A DNA stretch of 64,000 nucleotides from an uncultured SAR116 cluster alpha proteobacterium (GCA_902616005.1 CACMRG010000006.1:1-64000); one strand, 5' to 3'; counted from the stretch's first letter, positions 47,872 through 64,000 are shown. The notes: generated by a model not told the origin, from the letters alone. A program made the numbers and translations.

Positions 47872-49707
47872 ATGTGTGGAATAGTTGGTATAGTTGGAAA
47901 AAACAATGCATGTAAACATGCCTTAAATGTTTTAAAAAACCTAGAGTACCGAGGTTATGATTCTGCAGGATTAGCTTTTTTAAAAAATAATGACTTAAAT
48001 ACAATAAAGGCCTTAGGAAAATTAAATGAATTAAAGTCTAAATTTGAAACTTTGGAGGAGGAAATCAAAGATGTTTTAATTGCAATAGGTCACACACGTT
48101 GGGCAACCCATGGAAAAGTTGTATTAGAAAATACACATCCAATTTTATCTGAAAATATAGCTGTAGTTCATAATGGAATTATCGAAAATCATGATCAAAT
48201 TCGTTTAGAATTAAAAGAAAAAAAAGTAATTTTTGAAACTACTACTGATACTGAAGTAATACCACATTTACTAAGTATTTCAATGAAAAATACTAATAAT
48301 TTTTTCAATGCTTGTGTTTCGGTTGTCGATAAAATAGAAGGAGCTTACGCGTTCGCTGCTATTCATAGTTCAAAAGAAGAAATTTTTGTTGCTAGAAAAA
48401 CATCACCTTTAGTTTTAGGTCTAGGTTATGGATATAATATCGTCGGTTCTGATGCACAATCTATTTCACAATTGGTTAATGAGGTTATTTATTTAAATGA
48501 TGGTGACTACGCTATATTAAATAAAACAAAAATACAAATTTATGACACTAATAACATGAAAGTAGAAAGAGAAAAAATTAATATAAAATCTAATTATAAT
48601 ATTTTGAGTAAAAATGGCTATAAACACTTTATGGAAAAAGAAATTCATGAACAACCCAACGTATTAATCAATACAATTGGTAGTTTGGTAAGAGAAGAAA
48701 ATGAGTTAAATATTTTTCCAGAAAAAATGAATATAAAAAAAAATTACGGCATTACAATTTGTGCAGCTGGAACAAGTCACTACGCTGCAATGGTTGGCAA
48801 ATATTGGATTGAAAAATTTTCATCTGTTCCTGTAAACGTAGAACTTTCATCAGAATATAGATACCGAAATCCTGCTACTTCAATGTACTCAAGTATGATC
48901 GTTATATCTCAATCTGGGGAGAGTATAGATACTTTAATGGCTATGAGAGAAGCCAAAAGGCTAAATTTGAAAACAACAGCTATAACAAATGTAGAAAATA
49001 GTTCTATTGATAGAGAAGCTGATTATTCTATCTATACTCACGCTGGACCTGAAGTTGGAGTTGCTAGCACAAAATCTTTTACTTCTCAGTTGATCGTATT
49101 GTTGTCCATTGCAATGAAAATCGCTATTAATAATAAAAAAATAACTATTGATAAATATAATGACTTTATAAAAAATTTAAAATTAGTGCCAAATTTTTTA
49201 TCTAAAATTTTATCACTTAACGAAGAGTTCATTAAATTAGCTCAGTCTATTAAAAATAGTCAAAACATTCTTTATCTTGGCAGAGGAATTCTCTACCCTC
49301 TGGCACTAGAAGGTGCTTTAAAGCTCAAAGAATTAAGTTATATCCATTCGGAAGGTTTTGCTGCTGGTGAGATGAAACATGGGCCAATAGCTCTGATTGA
49401 AGAGGGCATGCCAATTATTATGTTTTTAACTTCTGACGGCATGGAAGAAAAATCAATATCTAATCTTCAAGAGGCGCTAGCAAGAGGAGGGAATATATTT
49501 TTAATTTCAGATAAAAAAAACTTAAAAAAAATTCATAATATTCAAAACAAAGTTATTGTTCCATCTTTCCAAGAAAATTGGAATGATATTTTTTCTCCAA
49601 TTTTTATGTCAATACCAGCACAATTAATTGCCTATCATGTTGCTAGAGAAAGAGGTACGGATGTTGACCAACCAAGAAACTTAGCAAAATCTGTCACAGT
49701 GGAATGA
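47872..49707 (+). CDS. glmS: Glucosamine-6-phosphate synthase GlmS
   Basis: The 611-residue enzyme has the N-terminal nucleophile Cys2 (MCGIVGIVG), the glutaminase domain and two SIS domains, ending NLAKSVTVE. Its last 18 bases (49,690-49,707) form the first of five glmS-end blocks in the array downstream. The gene itself is intact and of normal length. The 3' end of glmS is the known Tn7 target in many bacteria. Confidence 0.97.
   Translation: MCGIVGIVGKNNACKHALNVLKNLEYRGYDSAGLAFLKNNDLNTIKALGKLNELKSKFETLEEEIKDVLIAIGHTRWATHGKVVLENTHPILSENIAVVHNGIIENHDQIRLELKEKKVIFETTTDTEVIPHLLSISMKNTNNFFNACVSVVDKIEGAYAFAAIHSSKEEIFVARKTSPLVLGLGYGYNIVGSDAQSISQLVNEVIYLNDGDYAILNKTKIQIYDTNNMKVEREKINIKSNYNILSKNGYKHFMEKEIHEQPNVLINTIGSLVREENELNIFPEKMNIKKNYGITICAAGTSHYAAMVGKYWIEKFSSVPVNVELSSEYRYRNPATSMYSSMIVISQSGESIDTLMAMREAKRLNLKTTAITNVENSSIDREADYSIYTHAGPEVGVASTKSFTSQLIVLLSIAMKIAINNKKITIDKYNDFIKNLKLVPNFLSKILSLNEEFIKLAQSIKNSQNILYLGRGILYPLALEGALKLKELSYIHSEGFAAGEMKHGPIALIEEGMPIIMFLTSDGMEEKSISNLQEALARGGNIFLISDKKNLKKIHNIQNKVIVPSFQENWNDIFSPIFMSIPAQLIAYHVARERGTDVDQPRNLAKSVTVE
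49690..49707 (+). repeat. glmS-end block 1 (native)
   Basis: Reads TCTGTCACAGTGGAATGA, the native last five codons and stop of glmS. Serves as the reference for the other four blocks. Confidence 0.85.
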
Positions 49708-50032
49708 ATTCAAACGTACCTATCGAGATTATAAATTATTTTTTAAGTTCAATATTTTAATAGAAACTAATCAATTAGGACAATTTCAACTATCTAAAGA
49801 ACGAATTAAAAGATTAGAACTAATCTATTCACTTCATAAAATTGGTTATACTAATAGAGAAATTTGTGATTTTTTAACTCGTAAAAAATTAAAAACATTT
49901 AGAACAAAAAAAGATTACACACCAAAATTGATCTACATGACCATTAAAAAGTATAAAAATAGACTTTCAAGAAACAAATCACGTTTGATAAGTTTAAGAG
50001 AGGGACTTTATGTTACTCCATTTTCAAAATAA
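49691..50032 (+). CDS. A-family junction protein, copy A1
   Basis: The frame runs in the +1 frame through the glmS stop and continues 113 codons. The protein has a basic N-terminal part (KRTYRDYKLFFKFNIL) and a helical C-terminal half with GYTNREICDFL...KT...YTPKLIYMTIKK, like the helix-turn-helix of serine recombinases. No catalytic resolvase domain is present. No ATG or GTG is available at the 5' end; a CTG at 49,691 is the only candidate. The 325 bases from 49,696 recur at 55,428 with about 15 mismatches and no gaps. Confidence 0.5.
   Translation: MSQWNEFKRTYRDYKLFFKFNILIETNQLGQFQLSKERIKRLELIYSLHKIGYTNREICDFLTRKKLKTFRTKKDYTPKLIYMTIKKYKNRLSRNKSRLISLREGLYVTPFSK
49696..50020 (+). repeat. 325-bp direct repeat, left copy
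   Basis: Matches 55,428-55,752 over its full length with no gaps and about 15 differences by hand count (about 95% identity). It starts within the glmS end block and stops 12 bases before the end of A1. The two copies bracket 5.7 kb. Confidence 0.85.
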
Positions 50033-50037
50033 TGTGA

Positions 50038-50050
50038 TAAAATGAATATA
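50038..50050 (+). promoter_or_regulatory. -10 box six bases before start, nuclease gene
   Basis: TAAAAT (50,038-50,043) is followed by exactly six bases and the ATG at 50,050. No Shine-Dalgarno is visible. No clear -35 box. Confidence 0.45.
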
Positions 50051-51150
50051 TGAAAATATCAGAAATTCCAAAACTACTTAAAGAGTTTCATCCAATAAAA
50101 AATGGGGATAAGAAACCAGAGGATTTTACTTATGGGAGTGGAATTAAACTTTGGTGGATATGTGAAAGAGGACACGAATTTCAGAACTCTCCAAATCAAA
50201 GAACTTACTATAAACAAAACTGTCCTTACTATAGTGGTAAAAGAGTAACTAAAGAAAATAATCTTGAAGTATTATTTCCAGAAGTCTCTAAAGAATGGGA
50301 TTATGAAAAGAATGGAGAATTAAAACCAAATCAAGTTACATCCAAAACTATTAAAAAGGTTTGGTGGAAATGTAAATTAGAACATTCTTGGTATTGTCGT
50401 GTTCAAGATAGGACTCAAAAAAAATCTCAATGTCCTAAATGTTCTAATAAATCATCACAATCAGAAATAAGAATATTTTCTGAATTTTTACATTTATTTC
50501 CTAATTCAATTCATAGACATAGAATTGGTAAGACCGAATATGATATTTACATTCCATCATTCAAAATAGGTATAGAGTTTGATGGAAGATATTTTCATAA
50601 AGAACGAGAAGTTACCGATAAAAAGAAATATAAATTTTCAGAAAGAATGGGTATTACTTTAATTCGTATTAGAGAAAAACCATTAGAGAAAATTAGTGAA
50701 AACGACATACTTATTCCTCATAGAAGAATACTATTAAAAAAAGATGTAGATAGTATTATACATCAAATTAGAAATTTAATTTTATTTGAAACATATCCTC
50801 CAAATTTGATTTCTAATTATTTAAATCAAAAAGAGTTTCAGAACGAAGAACATTTTGAACAATATTCAAAACAATTACCTATTCCAGTATTAGAAAAGTC
50901 ATTTCTAAAAACACACCCTCAATTTGAGAAATTTTGGGATTATGAAAAAAATTATCCTCTAAGACCTGAACATTTTACTTATGGGAGTATGAGACATGTT
51001 TGGTGGAAATGTAGTAGGGGACATTCTTACAAACGACCAATTCAAAGTAAAGGATTGAGTAATAATAGATGTCCTGTCTGTTATAATATGAGTAATTTAA
51101 CAACTTCTAGAAAAATTAATGATCCAAAACAAAGAGAGTTACAATTTTAA
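50050..51150 (+). CDS. Zinc-ribbon (DUF4379-like) nuclease-type protein
   Basis: The 366-residue protein has three copies of a treble-clef zinc ribbon (DUF4379-like): about residues 15-60 (WWICERGHEF), 80-125 (VWWKCKLEHSW) and 290-350 (VWWKCSRGHSY). Between them is a Vsr/DUF559-like nuclease core: QSEIRIFSEFL, EYDIYIPSFKIGIEFDG and GITLIRIREK, with likely catalytic Glu, Asp and Glu. The first ribbon has CPYY where CPYC is usual, so one zinc ligand is lost. Its stop overlaps the next microprotein start (TAATG). Similar proteins occur in defence-type islands; the role here is not known. Confidence 0.75.
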   Translation: MKISEIPKLLKEFHPIKNGDKKPEDFTYGSGIKLWWICERGHEFQNSPNQRTYYKQNCPYYSGKRVTKENNLEVLFPEVSKEWDYEKNGELKPNQVTSKTIKKVWWKCKLEHSWYCRVQDRTQKKSQCPKCSNKSSQSEIRIFSEFLHLFPNSIHRHRIGKTEYDIYIPSFKIGIEFDGRYFHKEREVTDKKKYKFSERMGITLIRIREKPLEKISENDILIPHRRILLKKDVDSIIHQIRNLILFETYPPNLISNYLNQKEFQNEEHFEQYSKQLPIPVLEKSFLKTHPQFEKFWDYEKNYPLRPEHFTYGSMRHVWWKCSRGHSYKRPIQSKGLSNNRCPVCYNMSNLTTSRKINDPKQRELQF

Positions 51151-51227
51151 TGTGGGAAGTTTATAAAAAATTCTTAATGATGGTTGGAGTAAGTATTATT
51201 TTTGTTTTTATTCTTTATTCGGTATAA
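51150..51227 (+). CDS. 25-residue membrane microprotein (copy 1)
   Basis: A tiny frame beginning MWEVYKKF and then a single hydrophobic helix of about 16 residues. The second copy at 55,776 differs in eight codons: six silent and two Val-to-Ile. That is the pattern of a selected protein. The ATG overlaps the stop of the preceding gene by one base (TAATG), as does the second copy (TGATG), so both are translationally coupled. Function unknown; the size resembles type I toxins or small membrane regulators. Confidence 0.65.
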   Translation: MWEVYKKFLMMVGVSIIFVFILYSV

Positions 51228-51265
51228 TTGTTAAATTAAATTAATATTTATAAAAGTAGTCTCTT

Positions 51266-52210
51266 ATGGACGTTTACAAAGTATCAAATCAAAATAAATT
51301 AGATGTAGTTAATAATACATCTTTCGAAAATGAAAAAGAAATTCAAAACCTTGTTGAAAACAATCTAGAAACCCTATTCAATTTAACTTTTGTTAAAACA
51401 GAAGTGGTGTGTGAACAATTTAGATTTGATACATTATGTTGGGATGAAGAAAATAAATCATTTATAATCATAGAATACAAAAATACTAAATCTTTTTCCG
51501 TTATTGACCAAGGATACTCTTATCTTTCTGTTATGTTGAATAACAAATCAGATTTTGTTTTAGAATATAATGAAAATATGAAAGAAAATATTAAAAGAGA
51601 TGATGTAGATTGGTCTCAATCAAGAGTAATTTTTATTTCATCCAAGTTTAATGATTATCAAAAAAATAGTGTAAATTTTAAAGATGTTCCATTTGAATTG
51701 TGGGAAATTGAAAAGTTTTCAAATGGAACAATAGGAATTCAACAAATTCTTTCAAATTCTAAAGAAAGTATTAAAAATTTAGAAAATAAAAATAATACTA
51801 TTGTTAAGAAAGTTTCGGATGAAGTTATTAAATACGATGAAGAGACAATTATTACAAAGTATAATAAAAATTCTTTGAATGTTTATGAAAAACTAAAAAA
51901 AGAACTACTTGAACTAGGTAATATATCTATAAAAGTTACAAAAGGATATGTAAGTTTCTTAAAAAATAAAAAAGGGTTTATTTACCTTAATCCTAGAAAA
52001 GATTATTTAGAATTAGATTTTATATATAGAATTGATTTTGAAGGTAAAGTTAAAACTAAGAAAAGTATGTTTAAGTTTAATGATCCTGACAAACAGTTTA
52101 CTTTCCATTCAAACAATTACAAAGAACAGTATAAACATAAGTTGACTGAAAAAAGTGATATTAGTTATGTCATGTTTTGTTTAAGACAAAAATATGAATC
52201 TATGAAGTAA
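51266..52210 (+). CDS. PD-(D/E)XK nuclease-like protein with DUF5655 domain
   Basis: The 314-residue product has an N-terminal nuclease-like fold: FRFDTLCWDEEN, then SFIIIEYKNTKSFSVIDQG, giving the D...E-x-K pattern of restriction-type nucleases. The C-terminal third matches the DUF5655 domain (YEKLKKELLELGNISIKVTKGYVSF in part). Such proteins are annotated as putative nucleases or transporters of unknown role. It sits beside the zinc-ribbon nuclease in the same cassette. Confidence 0.7.
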   Translation: MDVYKVSNQNKLDVVNNTSFENEKEIQNLVENNLETLFNLTFVKTEVVCEQFRFDTLCWDEENKSFIIIEYKNTKSFSVIDQGYSYLSVMLNNKSDFVLEYNENMKENIKRDDVDWSQSRVIFISSKFNDYQKNSVNFKDVPFELWEIEKFSNGTIGIQQILSNSKESIKNLENKNNTIVKKVSDEVIKYDEETIITKYNKNSLNVYEKLKKELLELGNISIKVTKGYVSFLKNKKGFIYLNPRKDYLELDFIYRIDFEGKVKTKKSMFKFNDPDKQFTFHSNNYKEQYKHKLTEKSDISYVMFCLRQKYESMK

Positions 52211-52217
52211 TACTTAA

Positions 52218-52310
52218 ATGAGAAAAGAACTTAAATTATTTTATAAAGTTATAAGTCTTGAAACTCTATTTTGGGTTTTGTTAATTGTAGGTTCTGTTTA
52301 TTATTTTTAG
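52218..52310 (+). CDS. 30-residue membrane microprotein
   Basis: A short frame starting MRKELKLFYK then a single hydrophobic helix ending VGSVYYF. Similar in plan (basic N-end, one helix) to the 25-residue microproteins but not clearly homologous. It is 7 bases after the DUF5655 gene and ends 23 bases before glmS-end block 2. Confidence 0.4.
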   Translation: MRKELKLFYKVISLETLFWVLLIVGSVYYF

Positions 52311-52333
52311 AATATAGGTAATTATGAATCTAT

Positions 52334-52351
52334 TCTGTTACGGTTGAATGA
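52334..52351 (+). repeat. glmS-end block 2
   Basis: Reads TCTGTTACGGTTGAATGA, which translates S-V-T-V-E-stop as in glmS, with three silent changes. The 20 bases before it (from ATAGGTAATTATGAATC) recur before block 4. Confidence 0.8.
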
Positions 52352-52706
52352 TGGGGTTAGGTGGCATTTAGATAATCCTAACATTCAAGTTTTTATGTCA
52401 TTTACGGTTAAGATTACCGCACCTTGTCTTAAGAAAATTAGATATTCTCCTTATCAACAAAAACTCTGGGAAATCATTAAAGAAAAACATGATTCTGGAA
52501 TGGGTTATCGTAGGATTTCATATTGGTTGAATGAACATGGATACAAAACACCTGGAGGACATGAGTTCAAAAATACTCATGTCTTTTCTATACTTAAGAA
52601 GAAAAAAATAGCAGATGGAAGAATGATTAAAAGATTTGAACCAAAAATTGAAAATCTAAAATTCTCGATTAAGAAAAAACTTTTAATAATTGATAATGAA
52701 ATATGA
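52344..52706 (+). CDS. R-family junction protein, copy R1
   Basis: The 120-residue protein starts at a TTG inside the glmS-end block, in the +1 frame, like A1 and R3. The N-terminal part VRWHLDNPNIQVFMSFTVKI aligns with KLFFKFNILIE of A. The C-terminal half contains GYRRISYWLNEHGYKTPGGHEF and HVFSILKKKK, a recombinase-type helix-turn-helix. Copies R1 and R3 differ by many silent changes (for example CCT/CCC, ACG/ACA, ATT/ATA), so the protein is under selection. No catalytic domain. Confidence 0.6.
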   Translation: MNDGVRWHLDNPNIQVFMSFTVKITAPCLKKIRYSPYQQKLWEIIKEKHDSGMGYRRISYWLNEHGYKTPGGHEFKNTHVFSILKKKKIADGRMIKRFEPKIENLKFSIKKKLLIIDNEI

Positions 52707-52747
52707 ATTAGACTTGTTAAAATAACTAAATCTAATTCATTTTCAAT

Positions 52748-53287
52748 TTATTTATAATCTCCAGTAATCATAACTTTCTGAATTATTGAATCAGAAAAGT
52801 CTTTTTCAAATCTTTCTAAAGTATATTTGACAGCACTAAACCCAGATGCTTTTGCTTTAACATTTTCCTTTTGAGCATATATGGCAATACGGTATGTGTG
52901 TTTACCATCAGGAGGGCACATTCCTTTATAACCTGAACCACCATGTCCCTTACCGATAGTCCCACTTGGTTTTTTACCAGATGACAACGAATAACTATCA
53001 CCATTTACTTTTATATTAAAAACATTCCAGTGAACCCAAATCTTACCAGCAGGTTTTACAGCATCTGGGTCATCCATAATTATAGAAATACTTTTTGTAC
53101 CATTTGGTATTCCTGATAATGCTAATTGTGGACTAACGTCTTTGCCACCTTTTTTACTACATGCATGTAATTTATCTATTTTGCTATTAATTATTGATTC
53201 AGATGTAAGTTTCATTTCGGCAAAAGCAAGACATGGAGTCAGTATTAATGAACAAATAGTGATGATTATTATCTTTAAAAAATTCAT
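52748..53287 (-). CDS. PEBP (YbhB/YbcL-type) exported protein
   Basis: The 179-residue product has a signal peptide (about 1-23) and the phosphatidylethanolamine-binding-protein fold: IMDDPDAVKPAGKIWVHWNV and GKGHGGSGYKGMCPPDGKH. The family binds phospholipids or anions; bacterial roles are unclear. The only minus-strand gene in this cassette. Confidence 0.85.
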   Translation of the reverse strand: MNFLKIIIITICSLILTPCLAFAEMKLTSESIINSKIDKLHACSKKGGKDVSPQLALSGIPNGTKSISIIMDDPDAVKPAGKIWVHWNVFNIKVNGDSYSLSSGKKPSGTIGKGHGGSGYKGMCPPDGKHTYRIAIYAQKENVKAKASGFSAVKYTLERFEKDFSDSIIQKVMITGDYK

Positions 53288-53373
53288 ATTTATCTCTCCT
53301 TTTGTGGTTATAATAAGAAAAATTTTAACTAAAAAAAACTATTTTGTTAATTAAATGTTTATTAAACCACACA

Positions 53374-53424
53374 ACCCCACAAATCATCTACCGTGGAATA
53401 GTTTGGTTGTGGGGTAAGTTTTTT
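53374..53424 (+). terminator. Terminator-like hairpin repeat T1
   Basis: A 9-bp stem ACCCCACAA/TTGTGGGGT (53,374-53,382 and 53,407-53,415) with a 24-base loop is followed by AAGTTTTTTATTT. The loop segment ACCGTGGAATAGTTTGG recurs at 58,184-58,200 with one mismatch, before the broken copy of the next gene. Confidence 0.55.
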
Positions 53425-53488
53425 ATTTATTCCCCATGTTTTTAGATGGTTAAAAACACTCTCCCACCCAAAACCGATAAGAAAAAAT

Positions 53489-53516
53489 TTGAACTTCCCT
53501 TTCACCTTATTAGAAT
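53489..53516 (+). promoter_or_regulatory. Sigma-70 promoter giving a leaderless start
   Basis: TTGAAC (53,489-53,494), 16 bases, TAGAAT (53,511-53,516), then six bases and the ATG at 53,523. A 65-bp block including this is also found before 55,034. Confidence 0.65.
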
Positions 53517-53522
53517 GAGTTT

Positions 53523-54245
53523 ATGAAGATTGTTAGTTGGAATATGAACAAAAGAAAAGAGGGATCTTGGACTTATTTAATAGAAAAAATAGATCCAGAC
53601 TATGCATTATTACAAGAAAGTTCACCTATATTATCGGATGATATAAGAGAAAAAACTACTGAAGTCAAAGTTAAACAAAACCTTCTAAATTCAGTATATG
53701 CAAAGAATAATTTAATAGGAAAAGTTAAATTATCGACTGATGGTGGTCTTGGTTTTAATGTAACATCGGTAAACGATCCAACCTTAGGTAAATTTTTTTT
53801 TCTAAGTGTTTACGGAAACCTAGACTTTTGGGACACACTAGATATTCACTTATTGGGAGCATTATCAATTTTTATTTATGATCTAAGAAAAAGACACGAT
53901 GCAGAGCACATTGTTATTGCTGGAGACTTTAATATGGATAGAAGGATGGATGACAATCCAACAGGAACTAGGTTTTCAAAAAAAGGTGAAAGAAGGCAAA
54001 ACATTTTTTTTGATTGTATTTTGGATCTTGGTTTCAAAGACTGTATCGCAGAATCCTATGAGGATTATGTGCAAACCCACAGACATAATTTAAGTAAGTT
54101 CCCTTGGCAGATTGATCATTTTTTTGCTACTGAAAAGTTATTCAAGGGTTTAACTAATTTGGAAGTTATAGATAATGAAGAAGTTAGAAAATTAAGTGAT
54201 CATAATCCAATTATTGCAGAATTTGACTTAAGTTTGGTCAAATAA
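53523..54245 (+). CDS. Endonuclease/exonuclease/phosphatase-family protein
   Basis: The 240-residue protein has the EEP-fold motifs: KIVSWNMNK at the start, ALLQESS (catalytic Glu), IAGDFNMDRR, WQIDHFFAT and SDHNPIIAEF (catalytic His). It could act on DNA, RNA or phosphoinositide-like substrates; the sequence does not decide. A broken copy is at 58,353. No signal peptide. Confidence 0.8.
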   Translation: MKIVSWNMNKRKEGSWTYLIEKIDPDYALLQESSPILSDDIREKTTEVKVKQNLLNSVYAKNNLIGKVKLSTDGGLGFNVTSVNDPTLGKFFFLSVYGNLDFWDTLDIHLLGALSIFIYDLRKRHDAEHIVIAGDFNMDRRMDDNPTGTRFSKKGERRQNIFFDCILDLGFKDCIAESYEDYVQTHRHNLSKFPWQIDHFFATEKLFKGLTNLEVIDNEEVRKLSDHNPIIAEFDLSLVK

Positions 54246-54256
54246 TAATCGATCAA

Positions 54257-54964
54257 ATGGATAAATTAGATATAACATTTAATGTATTTTCTGACACCCC
54301 TAAAGGGAAAGATCCAGACACTTACAGTCCGACACTTCGCAAATACCATCAAATCCTTTGGAGTAAACTTCTCCCAGATGGACGGATGTTTGAACTAGAT
54401 TTAGATACTCCTAAATTACTACATCACAAATCAGACATAGGTGAATTTTTTTTATCTAGTGACGCAATAGGTCATACTTATAAAAATGTTAAAAAAATGT
54501 CTCATATATTGGATCAACTTCGACCTGGCGAAATAGATACATTTTTTGATTTATGCACAACAATCGGAGGTTTTATTATTTTTCCTTCCAAACAGATAAA
54601 TAGAAAAATGACGATTAATGGATCAAGAGGAGTTAATCACCGAATACAAGATAGGTTTGACCTTACTCTAGAATGTATAAGGAGATATTATTTAAAAGAG
54701 ACTAGTCCTTTATCAGAAACCTTTAATAGGTACTCATCTTTTTTCAGTCTGTTTAAAAATTTCAAGGGATATGTTGATTTCTTTCTATTGCAAGATCTTG
54801 TAGAACCTAATTATACAAAGATTAAGTTTTGGCATCCTTTTGAAAGTTTTGACAACTCTCCATTACCAAATGACATAGATGAGTATTATTTATTTAAAGA
54901 TAAAGTTGTAAAGTTTATCACCTCAAGAAATGAAAGAATAAAAAGGTTTTCAAGAAATATTTAA
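54257..54964 (+). CDS. DUF6994-like protein
   Basis: This 235-residue product contains GKDPDTYSPTLRKYHQILWS near the start, then GEFFLSSDAIG, features I associate with the DUF6994 family, of unknown function. It is 11 bases after the EEP gene and probably cotranscribed. No membrane helix. Confidence 0.55.
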   Translation: MDKLDITFNVFSDTPKGKDPDTYSPTLRKYHQILWSKLLPDGRMFELDLDTPKLLHHKSDIGEFFLSSDAIGHTYKNVKKMSHILDQLRPGEIDTFFDLCTTIGGFIIFPSKQINRKMTINGSRGVNHRIQDRFDLTLECIRRYYLKETSPLSETFNRYSSFFSLFKNFKGYVDFFLLQDLVEPNYTKIKFWHPFESFDNSPLPNDIDEYYLFKDKVVKFITSRNERIKRFSRNI

Positions 54965-54999
54965 AGTGTCTACCCCTCTCAAAACTGACAGGAATTGAT

Positions 55000-55027
55000 T
55001 TGAACTTCCTTTATAAATTATTAGAAT
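55000..55027 (+). promoter_or_regulatory. Sigma-70 promoter, leaderless, before Cys-rich gene
   Basis: TTGAAC (55,000-55,005), 16 bases, TAGAAT (55,022-55,027), then six bases and the ATG at 55,034. The surrounding 65 bp resembles that before 53,523. Confidence 0.65.
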
Positions 55028-55033
55028 AATGTT

Positions 55034-55243
55034 ATGAAATTAAATTATTGTTCAAGATGTAATCGTCCTTCAAAGAAATTATTTAACTGTAAATATGAAG
55101 AGCACGAAGTAGATTGGTTTTTACTTTGTGCTAGATGTGCATTTGAGTGTAGAAAAATATATAAAAAAGCATTTAAGAATAAATCTGGACAATTCGTTTC
55201 AATAGGATTGGTTAAATCAAGAAAAGAAAGAAGTTTAATTTAA
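55034..55243 (+). CDS. Small zinc-ribbon protein
   Basis: A 69-residue protein with YCSRCNRP near the start, a single internal Cys, then LLCARCAFECRK: two C-x2-C pairs suited to zinc. C-terminal half is basic. Family not recognised. Has its own promoter. Confidence 0.55.
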   Translation: MKLNYCSRCNRPSKKLFNCKYEEHEVDWFLLCARCAFECRKIYKKAFKNKSGQFVSIGLVKSRKERSLI

Positions 55244-55314
55244 AAGATTTACCAAACTTTTATCAACTACCTCCAAACTAAATTTAGACCATTTTTCTAA
55301 ATATTTTCTTTTTA

Positions 55315-55430
55315 ACTATTCTTCTTGAAATTTCTTTTTTAACTCCTGAATCATTTCCAAAAGATCAAAGTCTACTGCAACATCGGATCTGTTTTTATGA
55401 ACTACCCCCTTACTGAAACAATCAGTAACA
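55315..55430 (-). pseudogene. 3' gene fragment cut at block 3
   Basis: A minus-strand frame without start codon reads SKGVVHKNRSDVAVDFDLL and ends ELKKKFQEE at a TAG (55,315). It looks like the C-terminus of a protein whose front was lost at the junction. Only protein-like composition supports it. Confidence 0.3.
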
Positions 55431-55439
55431 GTGGAATAA
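55422..55439 (+). repeat. glmS-end block 3
   Basis: Reads TCAGTAACAGTGGAATAA: S-V-T-V-E-stop, with two silent changes and TAA for TGA. Upstream the frame adds LKQ only. Confidence 0.8.
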
Positions 55440-55752
55440 ATTCAAACGTACCTATCAAGATTATAAATTATTTTTTAAGTTCAATATTTTAATTGAGACT
55501 AATCAATTAGGACAATTTCAACTATCTAAAGAACGAATAAAAAGATTAGAACTAATCTACTCACTTCATAAAACTGGTTATACTAATAGAGAAATTTGTG
55601 ATTTTTTAAATAATAAGAAATTAAAGACATTTAGAACAAACAAATATTACACACCAAAATTGATCTACATGACCATTAAAAAGTATAAAAATAGACTTTC
55701 AAGAAACAAATCACGTTTGATAAGTTTAAGAGAAGGACTTTATGTTACTCCA
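55428..55752 (+). repeat. 325-bp direct repeat, right copy
   Basis: Gap-free match to 49,696-50,020 with about 15 differences. Confidence 0.85.
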
Positions 55753-55776
55753 ATGAAACAGTATATTGATAAATGA
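55429..55776 (+). CDS. A-family junction protein, copy A2
   Basis: Open for 115 codons after a TAA. It is the same protein as A1 except for about six substitutions and a different C-terminal end (MKQYIDK). Contains GYTNREICDFLNNKKLKTF and the YTPKLIYMTIKKY block. There is no normal start codon (first codon CAG), even less than in A1. The stop overlaps the microprotein ATG (TGATG), a coupling that argues the frame is translated. Confidence 0.5.
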   Translation, partial: QWNKFKRTYQDYKLFFKFNILIETNQLGQFQLSKERIKRLELIYSLHKTGYTNREICDFLNNKKLKTFRTNKYYTPKLIYMTIKKYKNRLSRNKSRLISLREGLYVTPMKQYIDK

Positions 55777-55853
55777 TGTGGGAAGTTTATAAGAAATTTC
55801 TAATGATGATTGGAGTAAGTATAATTTTCGTTTTTATTCTTTACTCGATATAA
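55776..55853 (+). CDS. 25-residue membrane microprotein (copy 2)
   Basis: Same length and plan as copy 1, with six silent and two conservative codon changes. The ATG shares its A with the stop of A2. Its own stop lies inside the TATAAT box of the next gene. Confidence 0.65.
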   Translation: MWEVYKKFLMMIGVSIIFVFILYSI

Positions 55854-55854
55854 T
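55849..55854 (+). promoter_or_regulatory. TATAAT box six bases before signal peptidase
   Basis: A perfect TATAAT ends six bases before the ATG at 55,861. No ribosome site is visible. A -35 box is not clear. Confidence 0.5.
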
Positions 55855-55860
55855 TTTAAA

Positions 55861-56436
55861 ATGAAAAAGTTATTTTTAGTTATTACTATTTGTATTAGTC
55901 ATTTTATTTTTTATGAATATTACAACGTTACAACAGTTGATGGTGTCTCAATGAGACCAAACATCAGTGATAAACAAAGTTATTTTTACTTCAATGATTT
56001 TTACAAAAACAACAATATCAATCGTGGAGATATAGTTTTTATTAATGTAAAAAATAAAGATTATTACCGTGTTAAAAGAGTAGTTGGATTACCGGATGAT
56101 ATAATCGAAATGAATAAAGGAATTTTAATTATAAATGAAATACCAAAAACTATCGACAAAGAATTAGAGATGAATATTTATGAAGAAAAAAATAATGAAT
56201 CTAAATCATATAAAATTTTAAATATTTCTAAGAATGATGAAGAAGATAATTTTAATAAAATTAAAATACCTCATGGTTTTTACTTTGTTTTAGGAGATAA
56301 TAGAGAAGATAGTTTAGATAGTAGAGAATTTGGATTAATTCCCAAAAAAGATATTTTACACAAATTGGTACCAGAAACACATTTCATTTATCATCTTTCT
56401 GGATATTTTTTCACTCTCTCAAATATGTTTAAATAG
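55861..56436 (+). CDS. Accessory type I signal peptidase
   Basis: The 191-residue protein has one N-terminal membrane helix, the catalytic Ser30 in DGVSMRPN, general base Lys72 in YRVKRVVGLPDD and GDNREDSLDSREFG. It would cleave secretory signal peptides outside the membrane. A full second membrane helix is absent, so it is a short form. As cassette cargo it may be specific to other cargo proteins, or act like TraF-type peptidases. Confidence 0.85.
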   Translation: MKKLFLVITICISHFIFYEYYNVTTVDGVSMRPNISDKQSYFYFNDFYKNNNINRGDIVFINVKNKDYYRVKRVVGLPDDIIEMNKGILIINEIPKTIDKELEMNIYEEKNNESKSYKILNISKNDEEDNFNKIKIPHGFYFVLGDNREDSLDSREFGLIPKKDILHKLVPETHFIYHLSGYFFTLSNMFK

Positions 56437-56453
56437 TCAGATAATGAAATAAA

Positions 56454-56640
56454 ATGAAACAAATAGGTAATTATGAATCTATATTGTTACAGTTGAATGA
56501 TGGTGTAAGGTGGAGTTATAATCAAATATTTGTGGTTAAAGTAAAATGAAAAAATATTTATTCAACTGTAAGAGAAAAGATATTTTTTAGGTTCTCATGT
56601 TCATTCTATCATTAAGAGAAAAATGGTGAGGAATATGAAA
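56454..56640 (+). pseudogene. Broken R-family gene, copy R2
   Basis: The frame from ATG 56,454 gives MKQIGNYESILLQLNDGVRW and then diverges and stops within 31 codons. A later piece in the +1 frame, from about 56,595, reads GSHVHSIIKRKMV, like the C-terminus of R1/R3. The middle is lost. This copy shows a possible upstream ATG start for the family. Confidence 0.65.
56483..56500 (+). repeat. glmS-end block 4
   Basis: Reads ATTGTTACAGTTGAATGA: I-V-T-V-E-stop, with the first residue changed from Ser. Preceded by the same 20 bases as block 2. Confidence 0.75.
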
Positions 56641-56727
56641 GTATCTAAAAAATATAAATCAAAAATATGTGATTTTAGTCTAAGGCTTATTGATTGAACT
56701 TTAATTAATACCATTAGGTAATTTAAA

Positions 56728-56755
56728 TTGAACTTTTTTTGCTAAACATTAGGAT
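56728..56755 (+). promoter_or_regulatory. Sigma-70 promoter, leaderless, before 56,762
   Basis: TTGAAC (56,728-56,733), 16 bases, TAGGAT (56,750-56,755), then six bases and the ATG at 56,762. Confidence 0.6.
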
Positions 56756-56761
56756 AAATTT

Positions 56762-57817
56762 ATGAAGAAATTACTGTTTATTTTTTTAACATTGATATTT
56801 TGTATTAATTCCATATTGGTGTTCGCTGAACAGAAGAAAAATATAGTTTGTTCAAAAAAAGATAGAGAATATGCAGAATTTTGGAAGAATTATTATGACC
56901 CAGAGAATGCATATCAATTTGGAGAAAAAATAAAGAAGTTAGTTAGAGATAAAAATCTCCAAAAGTTATTTGATTTAGTTGATGGAGAATTGACCTCTGG
57001 ACCTAGAAAGAATTTTATTAAAGGAAAAAAATTTTCTGAGATTTTTTCAGACAAATGGAGAGATGAATTACTTAAAAGTAATTCACCTTGTTCTCCAGTA
57101 GGATGGCGTGGTTTCATGTTGGATAGTGGTTCAATCTGGTTTAATAAAGATAAAGATAAAAATAAATGGTTTATCTTTTCAATCTTAGGAGCAAAAAAAG
57201 AAGTTGTTAGTGAAAAATCACTTCCAATCGGATGGAGATTTGAGGATAGAATAATACCACCTCAATGTTTTTCAACATTATGGATGTCTGGAGACAATTA
57301 TGAAGAATTTACAGAAAAGTTTAACATACAAAAATTTAAGGATTTTGTAAAAAATCCAGGCAAATATTTTGGTGATAAAATACCCAATTTTAAAGAAATC
57401 AAAACTTCATGGAATGAAGAAATTTATTTAATATCATCCATGAAGAAATGTTTTGAAGGTGAGTTAAGATATGGAGGAATTAAAAAAATTGGATTATCTG
57501 AGATTAAAATTAAGGAAAATGCAATAGAAACTCAAATCTGTTCATCTAAAGATGTATGCACTAAATTTTCTTATACTATTTTACATAATATTAATTCAGA
57601 TAAGTGCCAAAGTCTTGCCCCAAAAGTTAAAGGAAAATGTTTGAAATCATATTTAATTGCAATTGGAGATTATAGTGGTGGAACAATTGGATGGAATATG
57701 AGTTATAATATTTATGGATTATTTAATTTACAAAATAATACAAAATTTATTTTGCCATTAAAAAACTTTTTTAAAAAAAATAATGCTCTAAACTTTGTAG
57801 ATAAGTTAATGCAATAA
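56762..57817 (+). CDS. Exported protein, unknown
   Basis: The 351-residue product has a signal peptide (about 1-22, ending VFA), then a soluble domain with six or more cysteines and aromatic motifs (PVGWRGFMLDSGSIWF, WMSGDNYEEF). Cys pairs such as CSSKDVCTKF suggest disulfides. No family recognised. It has its own leaderless-type promoter in cassette 4. Confidence 0.55.
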   Translation: MKKLLFIFLTLIFCINSILVFAEQKKNIVCSKKDREYAEFWKNYYDPENAYQFGEKIKKLVRDKNLQKLFDLVDGELTSGPRKNFIKGKKFSEIFSDKWRDELLKSNSPCSPVGWRGFMLDSGSIWFNKDKDKNKWFIFSILGAKKEVVSEKSLPIGWRFEDRIIPPQCFSTLWMSGDNYEEFTEKFNIQKFKDFVKNPGKYFGDKIPNFKEIKTSWNEEIYLISSMKKCFEGELRYGGIKKIGLSEIKIKENAIETQICSSKDVCTKFSYTILHNINSDKCQSLAPKVKGKCLKSYLIAIGDYSGGTIGWNMSYNIYGLFNLQNNTKFILPLKNFFKKNNALNFVDKLMQ

Positions 57818-57843
57818 CTTTGCTTCAAAATTAGTTTTCATAT

Positions 57844-58092
57844 GTGGAGATAAGTGTGAAGTTTATATCATTATGTATTGTAATAGCATCAATAATTATA
57901 TCTTTTAATTACGTCTGGATTAATAGGATAGAAACAATTAAATTTAATAACTATTCTTTTATGATACTAAATAAATGGACTGGAAATCATTGTATATTTC
58001 ATCCCTCTGATTCTGCAAGGAATGATAAAAGAGTAAAAAAAGAGATGACTAATTGTGAAGTTGATGATTATGGCAAAATTATATTACCATAA
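57844..58092 (+). CDS. Small membrane-anchored protein, unknown
   Basis: An 82-residue product starting at GTG (a second GTG follows 12 bases later), with one N-terminal hydrophobic helix (about 6-25) and a short outside domain with two cysteines. Gap to the previous gene is 26 bases. Family unknown. Confidence 0.4.
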   Translation: MEISVKFISLCIVIASIIISFNYVWINRIETIKFNNYSFMILNKWTGNHCIFHPSDSARNDKRVKKEMTNCEVDDYGKIILP

Positions 58093-58352
58093 AAAAAGAG
58101 AATATTAGTAGACGCATTTAATGAGACATTTTACAAACTATATAAAACTAAAAATTTAACCCAACAATTTAGCATTAAACTTCACCGTGGAGTAGTTTGG
58201 GTATAGGGTAGTTTTTTTTAGTAATATTTTGAATTATAATTTTTTTAGTTGCTTATTTCTCTTTTAATGATTGATTTTAATGAGTTTTTTTGATGATGAA
58301 GAGTAACAGGATAAATGTTTATGTAGATATTCGTTTCTGATATAGTTTTAAT
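58093..58352. other. Non-coding stretch with hairpin repeat T2
   Basis: Contains ACCCAA (58,159-58,164) pairing with TTGGGT (58,197-58,202), an ACCGTGGAGTAGTTTGG loop segment (58,184-58,200) nearly identical to that of T1, and GGGTAG followed by eight T. It ends with TATAGT (58,341-58,346), six bases before the GTG of a broken EEP gene. Confidence 0.5.
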
Positions 58353-58547
58353 GTGAAGATTGTTAGTTGGAATATGAATAAAAGAAAAGAAGGAACCTGG
58401 AGTTTTTTAATAGGAAAAATAGATCCAGACTACGCATTATAAGAAAGTTCGACTATGTTATCATATGATTTAAAAAAAATATTACTGAGGTCAAAGTTAA
58501 ATACAACCTTCGAAATTTAGTATATGCAAAAAAATATTTTAATATTT
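58353..58547 (+). pseudogene. Broken copy of the EEP-family gene
   Basis: Strongly similar to the first 200 bases of the gene at 53,523 (KIVSWNMNKRKEG intact) but starts GTG, has a 3-base deletion that makes TAA at codon 31 (gca tta taa), further frame damage, and is cut just where the AEC gene ends. Confidence 0.85.
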
Positions 58548-59465
58548 CTAAAATACACTACCTACAAACGGTATTAAAAAAAGCGCGATTATGTATGTCA
58601 AAATACCAGACCTGACAACAGCATCTGTTTTGACATTATAAATTGATGCAAATATCAATGCCATCGCACCAATAGGTGCAGATGAGAGCATTAAAGTAGT
58701 TTTGGCATCTGTAAAAGTGATACCTGACAACCAAATAATTATTGTTAATACTATTAAAAAACCAAATAACTTTAAAAATGTTATTAGAAAAGATAATTGT
58801 ATCTGGGTTGAATCTGTCTTGTAAGATAATAAAATACCCATTCCTAACAGGGTTAAAGGAACACCTGAGTCACATAAAAAATTTATTAATCTATTAACAC
58901 TCTCTGGAAGATTTATAGAACTATGATAAATTATTAAACCAAGTATTAATCCAATAAAGGCAGGATTCTTCATTTGTTTTATTAATGCTTTTTTTACATC
59001 TAATTTATTTTGAGTGGTAAAATCCAAAGCACACACACTTAGTCCAACTGTAATGAAGTCAGCAGCAATAACTGTTTCAATTGGAACAATATCTTTCGCG
59101 GCAAATTCAACTAATACTATTGGATATATAAAAAATAAATGATTTGATGAACATGATACCAATCCAATTATTATACATTCTGGAGTGCTTCTATTAAAAA
59201 ACTTTTTTGCTATTGTAAATGCAATGAAATAAATTATTCCTTGTCCCAAAAGGTAGCAAAAATATAATTTCCAATTTATGAACTCATAGTTGAAGTTACC
59301 AATTATTTTTATACCCAAAGCAGGTAAAACAACTAATCCAACAAGTTTAGTAAATACTTTTGCTTCAGAATCATTAAATAGTGAAAATTTTCCTAGAGAG
59401 TAACCAATAAAAACTAGAGCAAAAAGAGGTAGGGTTGAAAAAAATAGATTTGAAAACATTGACAA
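58548..59465 (-). CDS. AEC-family membrane transporter
   Basis: The 305-residue protein has about ten hydrophobic helices in two repeats and FIGYSLGKFSLF at the start, GLVVLPALGI, and a late SSAPIGAMALIFASIYN block, features of the auxin efflux carrier family. Substrate unknown. It lies at the end of cassette 4 on the minus strand. The N-terminal Met could be three codons later. Confidence 0.8.
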   Translation of the reverse strand: MSMFSNLFFSTLPLFALVFIGYSLGKFSLFNDSEAKVFTKLVGLVVLPALGIKIIGNFNYEFINWKLYFCYLLGQGIIYFIAFTIAKKFFNRSTPECIIIGLVSCSSNHLFFIYPIVLVEFAAKDIVPIETVIAADFITVGLSVCALDFTTQNKLDVKKALIKQMKNPAFIGLILGLIIYHSSINLPESVNRLINFLCDSGVPLTLLGMGILLSYKTDSTQIQLSFLITFLKLFGFLIVLTIIIWLSGITFTDAKTTLMLSSAPIGAMALIFASIYNVKTDAVVRSGILTYIIALFLIPFVGSVF

Positions 59466-59643
59466 TTATTTAAAATTTACACATCTAAAAATTTTAATGT
59501 ATAATTTAAGTTAACCTAGTGATGCTTATTGTTTTAACAAGATAATTATTATTATTATTTAATATAAAAAAGTATTTGCTAAATTATTAATCATAAATGT
59601 TTTTCTAATTCTAAGTTCAACTTATTTCATCAGTTCAATTCAA

Positions 59644-59661
59644 TCTGTAACTGTTGAATGA
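59644..59661 (+). repeat. glmS-end block 5
   Basis: Reads TCTGTAACTGTTGAATGA: S-V-T-V-E-stop, three silent changes from glmS. Upstream frame reads SSIQ. Confidence 0.8.
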
Positions 59662-59950
59662 TAGGGTTAGGTGGCATTTAGATAATCCCAACATTCAAGT
59701 TTTTATATCATTTACAATTAAAATAACTGCTTCATATTTAAGTAAAATAAGATATTCACCATATCAGTATGAATTATGGAATATTTGTAATTCTATGCAA
59801 GAAGAGGGTGTTATATTATATACTATTGCAAAGTATCTAAATAAAAATGGTTATAAATCTGCTCGTGGAAAATTATTTAAAAACTCACACATAAATTCAA
59901 TACTTAAAAACAAGTTAATAGCTGACAACATAATAAATAAAAAGATATGA
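59654..59950 (+). CDS. R-family junction protein, copy R3
   Basis: The 98-residue product starts at TTG inside the glmS-end block after an in-frame TAA 9 bases upstream. It has VRWHLDNPNIQVFISFTIKI and a C-terminal helix-turn-helix (IAKYLNKNGYKSARG, HINSILKNK). It lacks the final basic tail of R1. Last recognisable junction gene of the array. Confidence 0.6.
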   Translation: MNDRVRWHLDNPNIQVFISFTIKITASYLSKIRYSPYQYELWNICNSMQEEGVILYTIAKYLNKNGYKSARGKLFKNSHINSILKNKLIADNIINKKI

Positions 59951-60004
59951 ACCAAGTAATGAAAACTTGCATATATATTTTTGTAAGAATTTGTGTTGAG
60001 AAAA

Positions 60005-60463
60005 TTAAGTGCTTTTTTTAAATGGAAAGAGACAAATCAATTTGTCTTCTTCAAACTTAAAATTAATATTATCTTCATTTTTAATTAATTTTAGTTTAAA
60101 GGTTTCGCCACCGAGCCCTTTTAAGGAAACTATATTATCTTTTATTTTTGTTTCTTGACCAAGGTCATTCCAAACAATTTTATTTTTAAATAATTCTATT
60201 GTTGTTGGAGTTGTATCAACTTCCGCTAATTTGCTCATATCTGGTTTTTTATTTGACTTCAAAGCATTGAGTATTTCTTTTGAGAAAATAATAGAAGTCA
60301 TAGCACAACTAAATTCTGCCATTGGTTCCTTAGAGACTGTATATTTTTTGATATTTTTTTCCATATCATTAGAATCAAACACATATTTTTGTGATACTTC
60401 AGTTTCTCCACAACCTACTAATAGAGATAAGAGTATAATTGGTAAAAAATTTATTTTATTAAT
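60005..60463 (-). CDS. Probable lipoprotein, non-standard start
   Basis: An in-frame upstream stretch makes a classic lipoprotein signal: NKINFLPIILLSLLVGCGE with lipobox LVGC. The only possible start is ATT at 60,463 (codon context ATT AAT AAA), giving 152 residues; a stop lies one codon further up. A later TTG at 60,382 gives a protein without signal. So the ATG may be mutated, or ATT is used. The mature domain is small, beta-rich and unrecognised. Confidence 0.5.
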   Translation of the reverse strand: MNKINFLPIILLSLLVGCGETEVSQKYVFDSNDMEKNIKKYTVSKEPMAEFSCAMTSIIFSKEILNALKSNKKPDMSKLAEVDTTPTTIELFKNKIVWNDLGQETKIKDNIVSLKGLGGETFKLKLIKNEDNINFKFEEDKLICLFPFKKST

Positions 60464-61172
60464 TGTCTAATCCAGTTTTTTTATACAGTCTTTACATTAA
60501 TTATTTATGATTAATGTTTAGATGTCAAATTCTATAGATAAATAATTTAAAATTTAAGTATTGAATTTGTACATAATCATTAATATTGGATTAAAAATGA
60601 CATGTATGTTCTATTCATTAATGATGGAATGTAAAAAAATACAAAAATTCAATATAAAATAAAGTCTTTATGTTTAGAAATTTGTTATTTTATTTTTTTA
60701 ATCTTTATCATTACCAAAGAAAAAGAAACCACCGCCAAAGAAAAAAAATGCTAAAAAAATTATTAAATAAAGCCCAATGTCGTAATTATCCCATCCACAA
60801 CTGATCTTTCTGCTTAAAACTGATCCACCTAATGAATTTAGTAGAGAGCAAAAATTATTGCCAAAAAATATATTATTGTATCCATATTAAACCTCTGAAA
60901 TAATTTTATTATCAAACATTATCATAATTGTTTAAAGCCTGAAATATTTTATTGTCATACTTAATTTTGAAAATTAGTTATTTGAAATCTATTCTCTTAA
61001 TATAGAAAAACTCTATAAGTCTATTAAAATTTTTTTAATAAAATATTAATTTATATCGATGATAACATTCTTCTTAAAAGTTTATTTCTTTGATTTATAA
61101 TCTTATTAATTTTTTTAATGGTATTAGCATTTTCATAACCAAGATATTCAACATACGATAACATTTTATGAC
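60464..61172. other. Gene-poor AT-rich stretch
   Basis: No intact gene seen. It holds one possible broken membrane gene (60,698-60,885, minus). The rest is AT-rich with many stops in all frames and no structured RNA that I can recognise. Confidence 0.5.
60698..60885 (-). pseudogene. Broken small membrane protein
   Basis: An ATG (60,885) preceded by AGAGG opens a frame MDTIIYFLAIIF that stops early. In another frame the sequence continues with CGWDNYDIGLYLIIFLAFFF and ends GNDKD. A single frameshift would join them into a membrane protein of about 60 residues. Confidence 0.3.
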
Positions 61173-61464: not shown

Positions 61465-61578
61465 AAATAACTCAACAAAGAATATGGCTGAAATGAATTA
61501 GCAAATCTATTATTTTATTTGTCAAACAGAATTTCTTTTTTGTTTATTAACTTAAACTATAAATTTAAAATATATAAA

Positions 61579-61839
61579 TTAATTGGCATGAGATACATAT
61601 CCTTTAAAAATAGATGTTTCTTGATTATTTTTTCTCATATCAATTATATTATTTATTGGTCTTATTTCGTTTAAAAAGGCAATTAAGCTGGCTTCATCTT
61701 CCTTAGACCTCTTTTTACTTAATATTTTTTTAAAATTCTTAATTGATCCAAAATTTTCTTTTATAGCGAAATCATCAATATTGTATTGTTTAAAATTTCT
61801 ATTAATGTGATTTTCAACTAAAGTTATTTTAAAAGACAT
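61579..61839 (-). CDS. Small soluble protein, unknown
   Basis: An 86-residue charged protein with the best ribosome site in the region (AAGGAGGTATT before ATG). It is helical and Lys/Asn-rich with no membrane helix. Family unknown. Confidence 0.55.
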   Translation of the reverse strand: MSFKITLVENHINRNFKQYNIDDFAIKENFGSIKNFKKILSKKRSKEDEASLIAFLNEIRPINNIIDMRKNNQETSIFKGYVSHAN

Positions 61840-62170
61840 AATACCTCCTTTTTGATACTTATAAAAATTATTTTAAATACATGAAATATTTAAGTTTGAC
61901 TAGTTAGTAAGATTTAATAAATGAATAAAATTTAGTCAGGAGTTTTAAAAATTGTCTAAACTCTAAACATAAATTTATAATTTATTTAGCAATAAAAATT
62001 TTATCATATAGAATTTAGGATGATTTGTGCGCTTGTAAATCAGTTATATATTATTATTTCTCAGAATCACTAATAAAAGATATTTATTTTATAAAAACAA
62101 TTAAATGTGATTAAGAATTTATCTTAAAATATATAAGTAGTATTAACTTTTCTAAGAAAATATCAAAAAA
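61840..62170. other. Non-coding AT-rich stretch
   Basis: No gene, RNA gene or clear repeat seen. All six frames are closed by frequent stops. Confidence 0.5.
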
Positions 62171-62344
62171 GTGAATTCTTCGAAAAAGATATATGTTCAA
62201 ATGAAAGAAGTCAAAATGAGGGTGAAATTTAGATTTGGTAGTGTAAATCAATTAAAAAAAATATTTGGTAAATATGTGCGCGGAGAAAAACCAATAGATA
62301 TAATTTTTGGGAAGTTAAGTAAGAGTTATTTACAGGATAATTGA
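62171..62344 (+). CDS. Possible 57-residue basic protein
   Basis: From GTG 62,171 (or ATG 62,201) a short basic frame contains VKFRFGSVNQLKKIFGKYVR and ends LSKSYLQDN. No ribosome site is clear. Composition is protein-like but the call is weak. Confidence 0.3.
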   Translation: MNSSKKIYVQMKEVKMRVKFRFGSVNQLKKIFGKYVRGEKPIDIIFGKLSKSYLQDN

Positions 62345-62533
62345 TTAAATATTAAAGATGAAGTTTTATGACAACTCTTAATTAACTCTTAAATAATAAT
62401 AACTACTTAATTGATAAACTGTGTTATAAACCTGCATAACATAAAGAAAGTAAAAATTTATACAGGTATTATTAATTAGGATAAATAAATTTTAAAATTA
62501 TGTTTTTACAATGGTGTTTATCTTTAATTTCTT

Positions 62534-63328: not shown

Positions 63329-63380
63329 AAATTATTTAAAATCTTTTTTTATTTAAAATTATGTAGAACTATATATTATA

Positions 63381-63623
63381 ATGGTAAATTTTTATAAGAA
63401 TAAAATGAACTTATTCAATTTAAGCAGAATTATATCTTTAGTTAGTTTTTTTTGTATAGTAATATCATTTTACTTATTAATTTTTGAAAAAAAAAGTGCC
63501 ACAATAGATGAATTAGTTTTAGTTGTTTTAGTATCAATTTCATATTTAATACCAGTTTTGATTTTTAATTTTGTATGTTTTAGAGAAATTACTTTTTGGA
63601 TAAGAAAAATTAGAGATAAATAG
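63381..63623 (+). CDS. Small two-helix membrane protein
   Basis: This 80-residue product has two hydrophobic helices (about 15-35 and 44-65) and a basic C-terminus. No family recognised. Overlaps the convergent next gene by 14 bases. Confidence 0.45.
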   Translation: MVNFYKNKMNLFNLSRIISLVSFFCIVISFYLLIFEKKSATIDELVLVVLVSISYLIPVLIFNFVCFREITFWIRKIRDK

Positions 63624-63993: not shown

Positions 63994-64000
63994 TTTATGT

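Follow-up and report, generated by a model that had tools for sequence, protein, structure and literature searches.

Tn7-like elements use the universally conserved 3′ end of glmS, inserting past its stop codon and leaving the gene unchanged, and the marine tycheposons target tRNA genes by means of tyrosine recombinases. In the staphylococcal and enterococcal cassette chromosomes (SCC and ECC), CcrAB recombinases insert the element at the 3′ end of rlmH, and the attachment (att) site of the element is dyad-symmetric (PMC6222049). In ECC the gene end also recurs as direct repeats, inverted repeats give the att site its symmetry, multiple attR sites occur, and some members are recombinase-less (PMC6222049). 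Here, we analysed an array of gene cassettes behind glmS in contig C6 of a 1.66-Mb assembly (78% complete) of a SAR116-cluster alphaproteobacterium; "the window" denotes the whole stretch of 64,000 nucleotides that was analysed. A first-pass annotation, made from the window alone, had read five copies of the glmS end as the marks of serial insertion with accumulation of cargo. From the comparison of sequences, the array very probably consists of site-specific integrative cassettes, most of them recombinase-less, which enter a chromosomal attachment site (attB) in the last glmS codons by conservative recombination of circular cassettes.

These cassettes work like the cassette chromosomes at rlmH and are not members of that family. 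The likeness lies in the use of a conserved housekeeping gene as target, with insertion into its 3′ end apparently driven by a large serine recombinase (LSR), in gene-end direct repeats with a dyad-symmetric element att site, and in recombinase-less members. The differences are several: the target is glmS and not rlmH (orfX); the LSRs score only 30–33 bits against the NCBIfam CcrA model, whose cut-off is 700, and none qualifies as ccrA, ccrB or ccrC; the cassettes are much smaller (mostly 0.25–3 kb), with many per array and many types of terminal arms; a conserved open reading frame (ORF) with a PF07508 domain lies at the left end; and the hosts are marine Alpha- and Gammaproteobacteria. The literature searched, outside which most subscription papers lay, contained no description of such arrays at glmS, and as far as we found the system is undescribed.

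Copies of the glmS end behind glmS

In the window, glmS occupies positions 47872–49707 on the + strand, and its product is 87–89% identical in amino acids to those of relatives in its SAR116 genus. The last 18 bases, the putative chromosomal attachment site, follow the pattern TCNGTN-AC-NGTNGARTRR, which encodes S-V-T-V-E-stop. At least seven such glmS-end blocks lie 3′ of glmS, all on the + strand. With up to three mismatches allowed, the window holds seven matches against 1.5 expected, and none of 100 shuffles reached seven; a search of the entire assembly with the strict 18-bp pattern gave four matches, all forward, and these are the window's four exact blocks. The 12-bp right half ACNGTNGARTRR is found seven times within 49.6–61.7 kb on the + strand, nowhere else on that strand of the window and once on its minus strand. 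The five blocks listed at first are all in place, each reading S/I-V-T-V-E-stop; the total was too low, since the seven copies of the right half reveal two more, partly decayed blocks at 53384–53401 and 58178–58195.

Longer repeats surround some of the blocks, a finding that could have spoken against an array had the repeats been unrelated to it. Blocks 1 and 3 lie inside a 300-bp repeat (95% identity) and blocks 2 and 5 inside a 148-bp repeat (78%). Both repeats are the left ends of cassettes of the same type.

Empty and occupied sites in relatives

At least one further block follows glmS at 20 of the 29 named SAR116 loci, within the sequence examined. (The named loci overlap with the genomes carrying G numbers, and counts from the two sets are not independent.) The sequence after the glmS stop codon differs from genome to genome, and array content differs at the same site, contrary to what a fixed order of the same genes in all relatives would give. 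The SAR116 loci hold 34 exact 14-bp glmS-end matches in 210 kb downstream of glmS, without a single one in the 280 kb upstream or on the minus strand. Another 21, in 439 kb downstream of glmS, come from marine bacteria beyond SAR116 (SAR86, SAR92 and further Alphaproteobacteria), which makes 55 in all. Over the loci of all relatives, there were no matches in 816 kb upstream of glmS and none on the minus strand. Outside these groups arrays are rare, with zero or one match in nearly all of 385 Alphaproteobacteria genomes. Arrays of three to four blocks, with cassettes of ~240–1500 bp, were also seen behind glmS in two further alphaproteobacterial families (L195 in G479 and L196 in G143).

Empty and occupied forms of the site were found in two groups. 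In 12 SAR11 genomes the empty glmS end reads TC[TC]GTTAC^NGT[AT]GAATAA and is followed by TTTATTGAC. Two further SAR11 genomes carry a 507/508-bp acetyltransferase-like cassette; there glmS ends in TCTGTTAC-CGTGGAGTAA and the sequence past the cassette reads TCAATCAC-[TC]GTAGAATAA-TTTATTGAC, with the host halves outside and the cassette halves inside. Within the window's genus, genome G006 is empty, its glmS being joined directly to the flank that begins at 61574 in the window (61574–64000, +), and G007 carries an array of 5.4 kb, the far end of which still has the host right half.

The SAR11 comparison bears on two other explanations. Stacked Tn7-like transposition into attTn7 shares its target gene with these cassettes, and Tn7-like elements do stack. 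It is nevertheless extremely unlikely: the junctions lie within the coding sequence of glmS, whose end does not stay intact but is exchanged, as the empty and occupied SAR11 sites show; cassettes as small as 60–500 bp lack a transposase; and neighbouring blocks differ, unlike a target duplication. The first-pass annotation had set the array apart from Tn7-like elements, and the exchange of the glmS end bears this out. Tandem duplication of the glmS 3′ region or homologous recombination, with unrelated genes between the remnants, is also contradicted as the primary cause by the clean SAR11 insertions, and the displaced blocks are not preceded by glmS sequence. Homologous recombination between blocks probably does shuffle or fuse cassettes, giving mosaics such as 53402–55421; as the origin of the blocks we regard it as very improbable, also in view of the cassette ends described below.

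Cassette arms and the point of exchange

Each cassette carries an inverted repeat, in which the sequence right after one block pairs with the sequence ending 4 nt 5′ of the next, and the sequence of the repeat varies with cassette type. A pairing score of 20 was attained by 37 of 76 inter-block segments and by 2.1% of mismatched pairs. All 37 clear inverted-repeat cassettes have an identical register, in which the dyad is centred between the invariant A at block position 7 and the invariant C at position 8. Such pairing in a fixed register argues against duplication, as does the chimeric structure of the blocks at a single point.

This chimeric structure emerged from comparing blocks that share one flank only. 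Pairs with a common right flank agree at positions 9, 12, 15, 17 and 18 (0.59, 0.69, 0.85, 0.97 and 0.85, against a baseline of 0.25, 0.33, 0.52, 0.73 and 0.51) but not at positions 3 and 6, whereas pairs with a common left flank agree at positions 3 and 6 (0.64 and 0.81, against 0.26 and 0.29) but not at the remaining ones. Each block is therefore composed of two half-sites joined at AC. The left half is part of the right end of the left-hand cassette, or of the host glmS, and the right half part of the left end of the right-hand cassette. Likewise, in the eight glmS ends listed from the window's genus, host position 3 is constant and the sequence right of AC varies with the adjoining cassette. 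Judged by these alignments, the point of exchange is the central AC, in agreement with recombination at the central dinucleotide of attP (the site on the circular element) and attB. The displaced blocks, taken at first for whole glmS ends, do have the sequence of one; as chimeras of two half-sites they are not the complete old end. Of the glmS end, each insertion renews no more than the sequence 3′ of the central AC (NGTNGARTRR).

A tyrosine integrase acting at the glmS end, of the kind found in tRNA-type islands or Xer/integron-like, would exchange with a 6–8 bp overlap. The switch described above falls between variable positions 6 and 9, with only AC in common, which argues against such an enzyme. 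In its favour, islands at the 3′ ends of coding genes mostly use tyrosine integrases, and tyrosine recombinases are present in every SAR116 genome searched. Against it, none of the PF00589 matches listed is near glmS. Together with the position of the LSRs reported below, this makes a tyrosine integrase very unlikely.

Integron attC sites were considered and rejected, as the arms are split over both cassette ends and the core is the end of a coding gene. The arrays resemble integrons in that small, often one-gene cassettes pile up in one orientation at one chromosomal site. They differ in having a gene end as the site, with arms at both cassette ends and no attC, and in an apparent serine recombinase that is not fixed beside the array. 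No attC per cassette with IntI was recognised, a judgement made on arms and core, IntI not being searched for as such.

A large serine recombinase at the end of autonomous elements

The first-pass annotation saw no integrase, and a serine recombinase is indeed absent from the window and from the available assembly. In relatives, an LSR with Resolvase and Recombinase domains stands next to the att site. It was found in 7 of 136 genomes of the order, and all seven genes end at or within ~60 nt of a block with 0–1 mismatch. Counting the SAR86 genome G657 with the order, an LSR, and not a tyrosine integrase, lies at the element end beside a block in 8/8 cases. Complete LSR elements adjoin glmS in G035 (9.6 kb), G074 (~13 kb), G015 and G021, the last two encoding a small serine recombinase in addition to the LSR. 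In G657, glmS is followed by the left arm GTTTAGTCGGTCTTT, the LSR and the right arm AAAGACCGATTAAAC before the block, and further SAR86 genomes carry LSR-less cassettes with the same arms. More generally, LSR elements and LSR-less cassettes have arms that match at up to 24 of 24 bases, and two LSR-less cassettes (L072 and L055) still carry remnants of the LSR C-terminus at their right end. These observations support the view that the missing enzyme is an LSR carried by a few autonomous elements.

As a negative control, two SAR86 LSRs of a different family (L158 and L160) have no adjoining block. This family ends in VEL(R/G)GIEP... and probably has another target. Reference phages and plasmids yielded no match to the LSR.

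Circular forms in viral metagenomes

A first LSR scan of IMG/VR had not retrieved circular forms; they were reached through a search with the left-end ORF. Contig L207 has an exact 123-bp terminal repeat, closing to a circle of 10,265 bp, and L212/L199 an exact 99-bp terminal repeat, closing to one of 9,954 bp. Each circle holds one block, which forms a palindrome with its own perfect or near-perfect arms on either side (for example, AATTGTCCAATCCGAA-gtaa-TCAGTTACTGTGGAGTAG-TTCGGATTGGACAATT); the LSR ends at the block and the left-end ORF starts after it. A third, linear contig (L201) has a junction of the same type. By their sequence, these junctions match the attP that the model predicts, and they would be circular junctions of the kind that the first-pass annotation had proposed to look for.

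In L207 (53–1858) the LSR frame reads through the block into the left-end ORF, whereas in other elements a stop codon precedes the block; circularisation would therefore fuse the LSR and the left-end protein in this element. That the two are always fused in the circle was rejected, as this is true of L207 and not of L067, G074 or G108.

Homologues of a T4-type clamp loader (gp62-like) lie inside glmS-end elements on three IMG/VR contigs (L207, L199 and L200); a search of 14 cellular genomes, which had no positive control, gave none. They hint at a link to T4-like helper phages or phage satellites. The cassettes resemble tycheposons and VEIME in being marine, small and integrative and in occurring among viral contigs, here with the clamp-loader homologue.

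The left-end open reading frame

Of 90 SAR116 cassette left ends, 48 have a nearby open frame of 80 codons or more. It mostly overlaps the block, out of frame with glmS, and usually lacks an ATG. Purifying selection acts on its two main families, A4 and A5 (median omega 0.19 over 23 pairs), and 20/20 A4 members match the recombinase DNA-binding domain PF07508 in Pfam. Foldseek returned weak matches only, the first being the Bxb1 LSR (E 0.69), and the recombinase-like nature of the protein is therefore claimed from Pfam. The protein may act as a directionality factor or as a target-binding accessory. A second family of small PF07508-like proteins, ATG-started and beginning near Y-S-T-V-S-F-V-R-C-D, was seen on the opposite strand inside arrays (L057 4885–5263, counted from the glmS end, minus; L148 15025–15405, minus).

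Proposed mechanism

In the mechanism that we propose, conservative site-specific recombination would join the glmS 3′ end, with its core TCNGTN-AC-NGTNGARTRR, to a circular cassette whose arms form an inverted repeat around AC. The sequences show that, upon exchange at AC, glmS retains TCNGTNAC and gains NGTNGARTRR, including the stop codon, from the incoming cassette, while its old right half is displaced to the far side and joined there to the cassette's own left half. The LSR, which a few autonomous elements encode at their right end, in many cases next to a small serine recombinase, would make the exchange with an overlap of 2 bp. Most cassettes, being recombinase-less, would be mobilised in trans by an LSR recognising their arm type. 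The short PF07508-like left-end protein may aid recombination, for instance by setting its direction. Transfer could, more speculatively, involve packaging of the phage-satellite kind. An enzyme, an empty site and a circular form have been seen in relatives and in free DNA circles, which argues for a real mobile cassette system; serial insertion with build-up of cargo, as first suggested, is supported by these forms, by the differing arrays and by the exchange of cassettes between genera.

Several points weigh against this mechanism. The window's own assembly, which is 78% complete, yielded no serine recombinase. Clear paired arms are lacking in 39 of the 76 inter-block segments, which we read as decay or fusion. 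The circular contigs are possibly tandem copies collapsed by assembly, and mobilisation in trans is suggested by shared arms.

Extending the mechanism to a widespread marine system of SAR116, SAR11, SAR86, SAR92 and other Alphaproteobacteria is a reading that we favour only slightly. Many LSR families with differing arm specificities would share one attB, the near-universal C-terminal codons of glmS, and recombinase-less cassettes would pile up in the manner of integrons and move between classes, possibly as phage satellites. The proposed system would explain why this spot is hypervariable in bacteria that rank among the most abundant of the ocean, giving its enzyme, site and circular form; its SAR11 and SAR86 hosts have very small genomes and few known mobile elements. 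Since the S-V-T-V-E-stop end of glmS that serves as attB is conserved and found in most bacteria, the LSRs are worth testing as integration tools with a near-universal landing site.

Cargo and exchange between genera

Near-identical cassettes occur behind divergent glmS genes. The L055 and L072 cassettes are 98.7% identical over 1093 bp, their glmS genes 65%; part of the cargo of the window's cassette A (51477–52285) is 97.4% identical over 809 bp to a cassette in L068, from another genus, with glmS at 67%. These comparisons support an exchange of cassettes between genera. The 90 cargo proteins tested include type I, II and III restriction-modification systems, HNH nucleases, helix-turn-helix regulators and secreted proteins, and many have no family match. 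With restriction-modification, nucleases and envelope proteins among the cargo, the cassettes may plausibly serve to trade genes for defence and for the cell surface.

Architecture of the array in the window

All features below lie on the + strand unless stated otherwise. Block 1 (49690–49707, TCTGTCAC^AGTGGAATGA) joins the host left half to the right half of cassette A, as an attL-type junction. Cassette A (49708–52333) has the left arm ATTCAAACGTACCTAT and the right arm ATAGGTAATTATGAAT, which ends 4 nt 5′ of block 2. Its left-end ORF (49706–50032; ~108 amino acids, helix-turn-helix type) is out of frame with glmS, lacks an ATG start and aligns with family A5. The cargo comprises a DUF4379 treble-clef protein (50050–51150; PF14311, 3.7e-47) with a weak restriction-endonuclease-like match and a DUF5655 or weakly HsdR_N-like protein (51266–52210; PF18899, 3.3e-11).

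Block 2 (52334–52351, TCTGTTAC^GGTTGAATGA) opens cassette B (52352–53383), whose right arm CCACACAACCCCA ends 4 nt 5′ of block 2b and whose left arm is TGGGGTTAGGTGG. Its left-end ORF (52344–52706) encodes a lone LSR-type Recombinase domain (PF07508; AlphaFold model, mean pLDDT 83), and the cargo is a PEBP-family protein (52748–53287, minus strand; PF01161). Block 2b (53384–53401, TCATCTAC^CGTGGAATAG), one of the two added here, has two mismatches, both in the left half. The following stretch B′ (53402–55421), of one or more cassettes, contains an Exo_endo_phos gene (53523–54245), a DUF6994 gene (54257–54964) and a small zinc-ribbon-like ORF (55034–55243); its terminal arms are unpaired, and it is thus probably fused or decayed.

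Block 3 (55422–55439, TCAGTAAC^AGTGGAATAA) leads into cassette C (55440–56482), with a left-end ORF (55438–55776), a signal peptidase I homologue (55861–56436) and the same arms as cassette A, ATTCAAACGTACCTAT and ATAGGTAATTATGAAT. After block 4 (56483–56500, ATTGTTAC^AGTTGAATGA), cassette D (56501–58177) encodes a secreted protein of 351 amino acids (56762–57817), a cargo also found in the G007 and G015 arrays at 72–74% DNA identity. Block 4b (58178–58195, AACTTCAC^CGTGGAGTAG), the second addition, has an intact right half. Remnant cassettes (58196–59643) follow, with a membrane-transport ORF on the minus strand (58548–59465), a second, decayed copy (58354–58539) of the Exo_endo_phos gene at 53523, and a right arm, ACTTATTTCATCAGTT, of the G021 LSR type. 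Block 5 (59644–59661, TCTGTAAC^TGTTGAATGA) precedes cassette E (approximately 59662–60660), which has a left-end ORF (59654–59950) and a decayed right end and is 84.5% identical to an intact cassette in L068 up to 60644.

Two kinds of small feature recur in the arrays. Tiny predicted membrane peptides of 25–30 amino acids (e.g. MWEVYKKFLMMVGVSIIFVFILYSV) are found at 51150–51227, 52218–52310 and 55776–55853, and near cassette ends in several SAR116 arrays. A promoter-like repeated intergenic stretch (TTGAACTT ... TTAGAATAA) lies just 5′ of cargo genes at 53450–53527 and 54961–55038, and in other arrays too.

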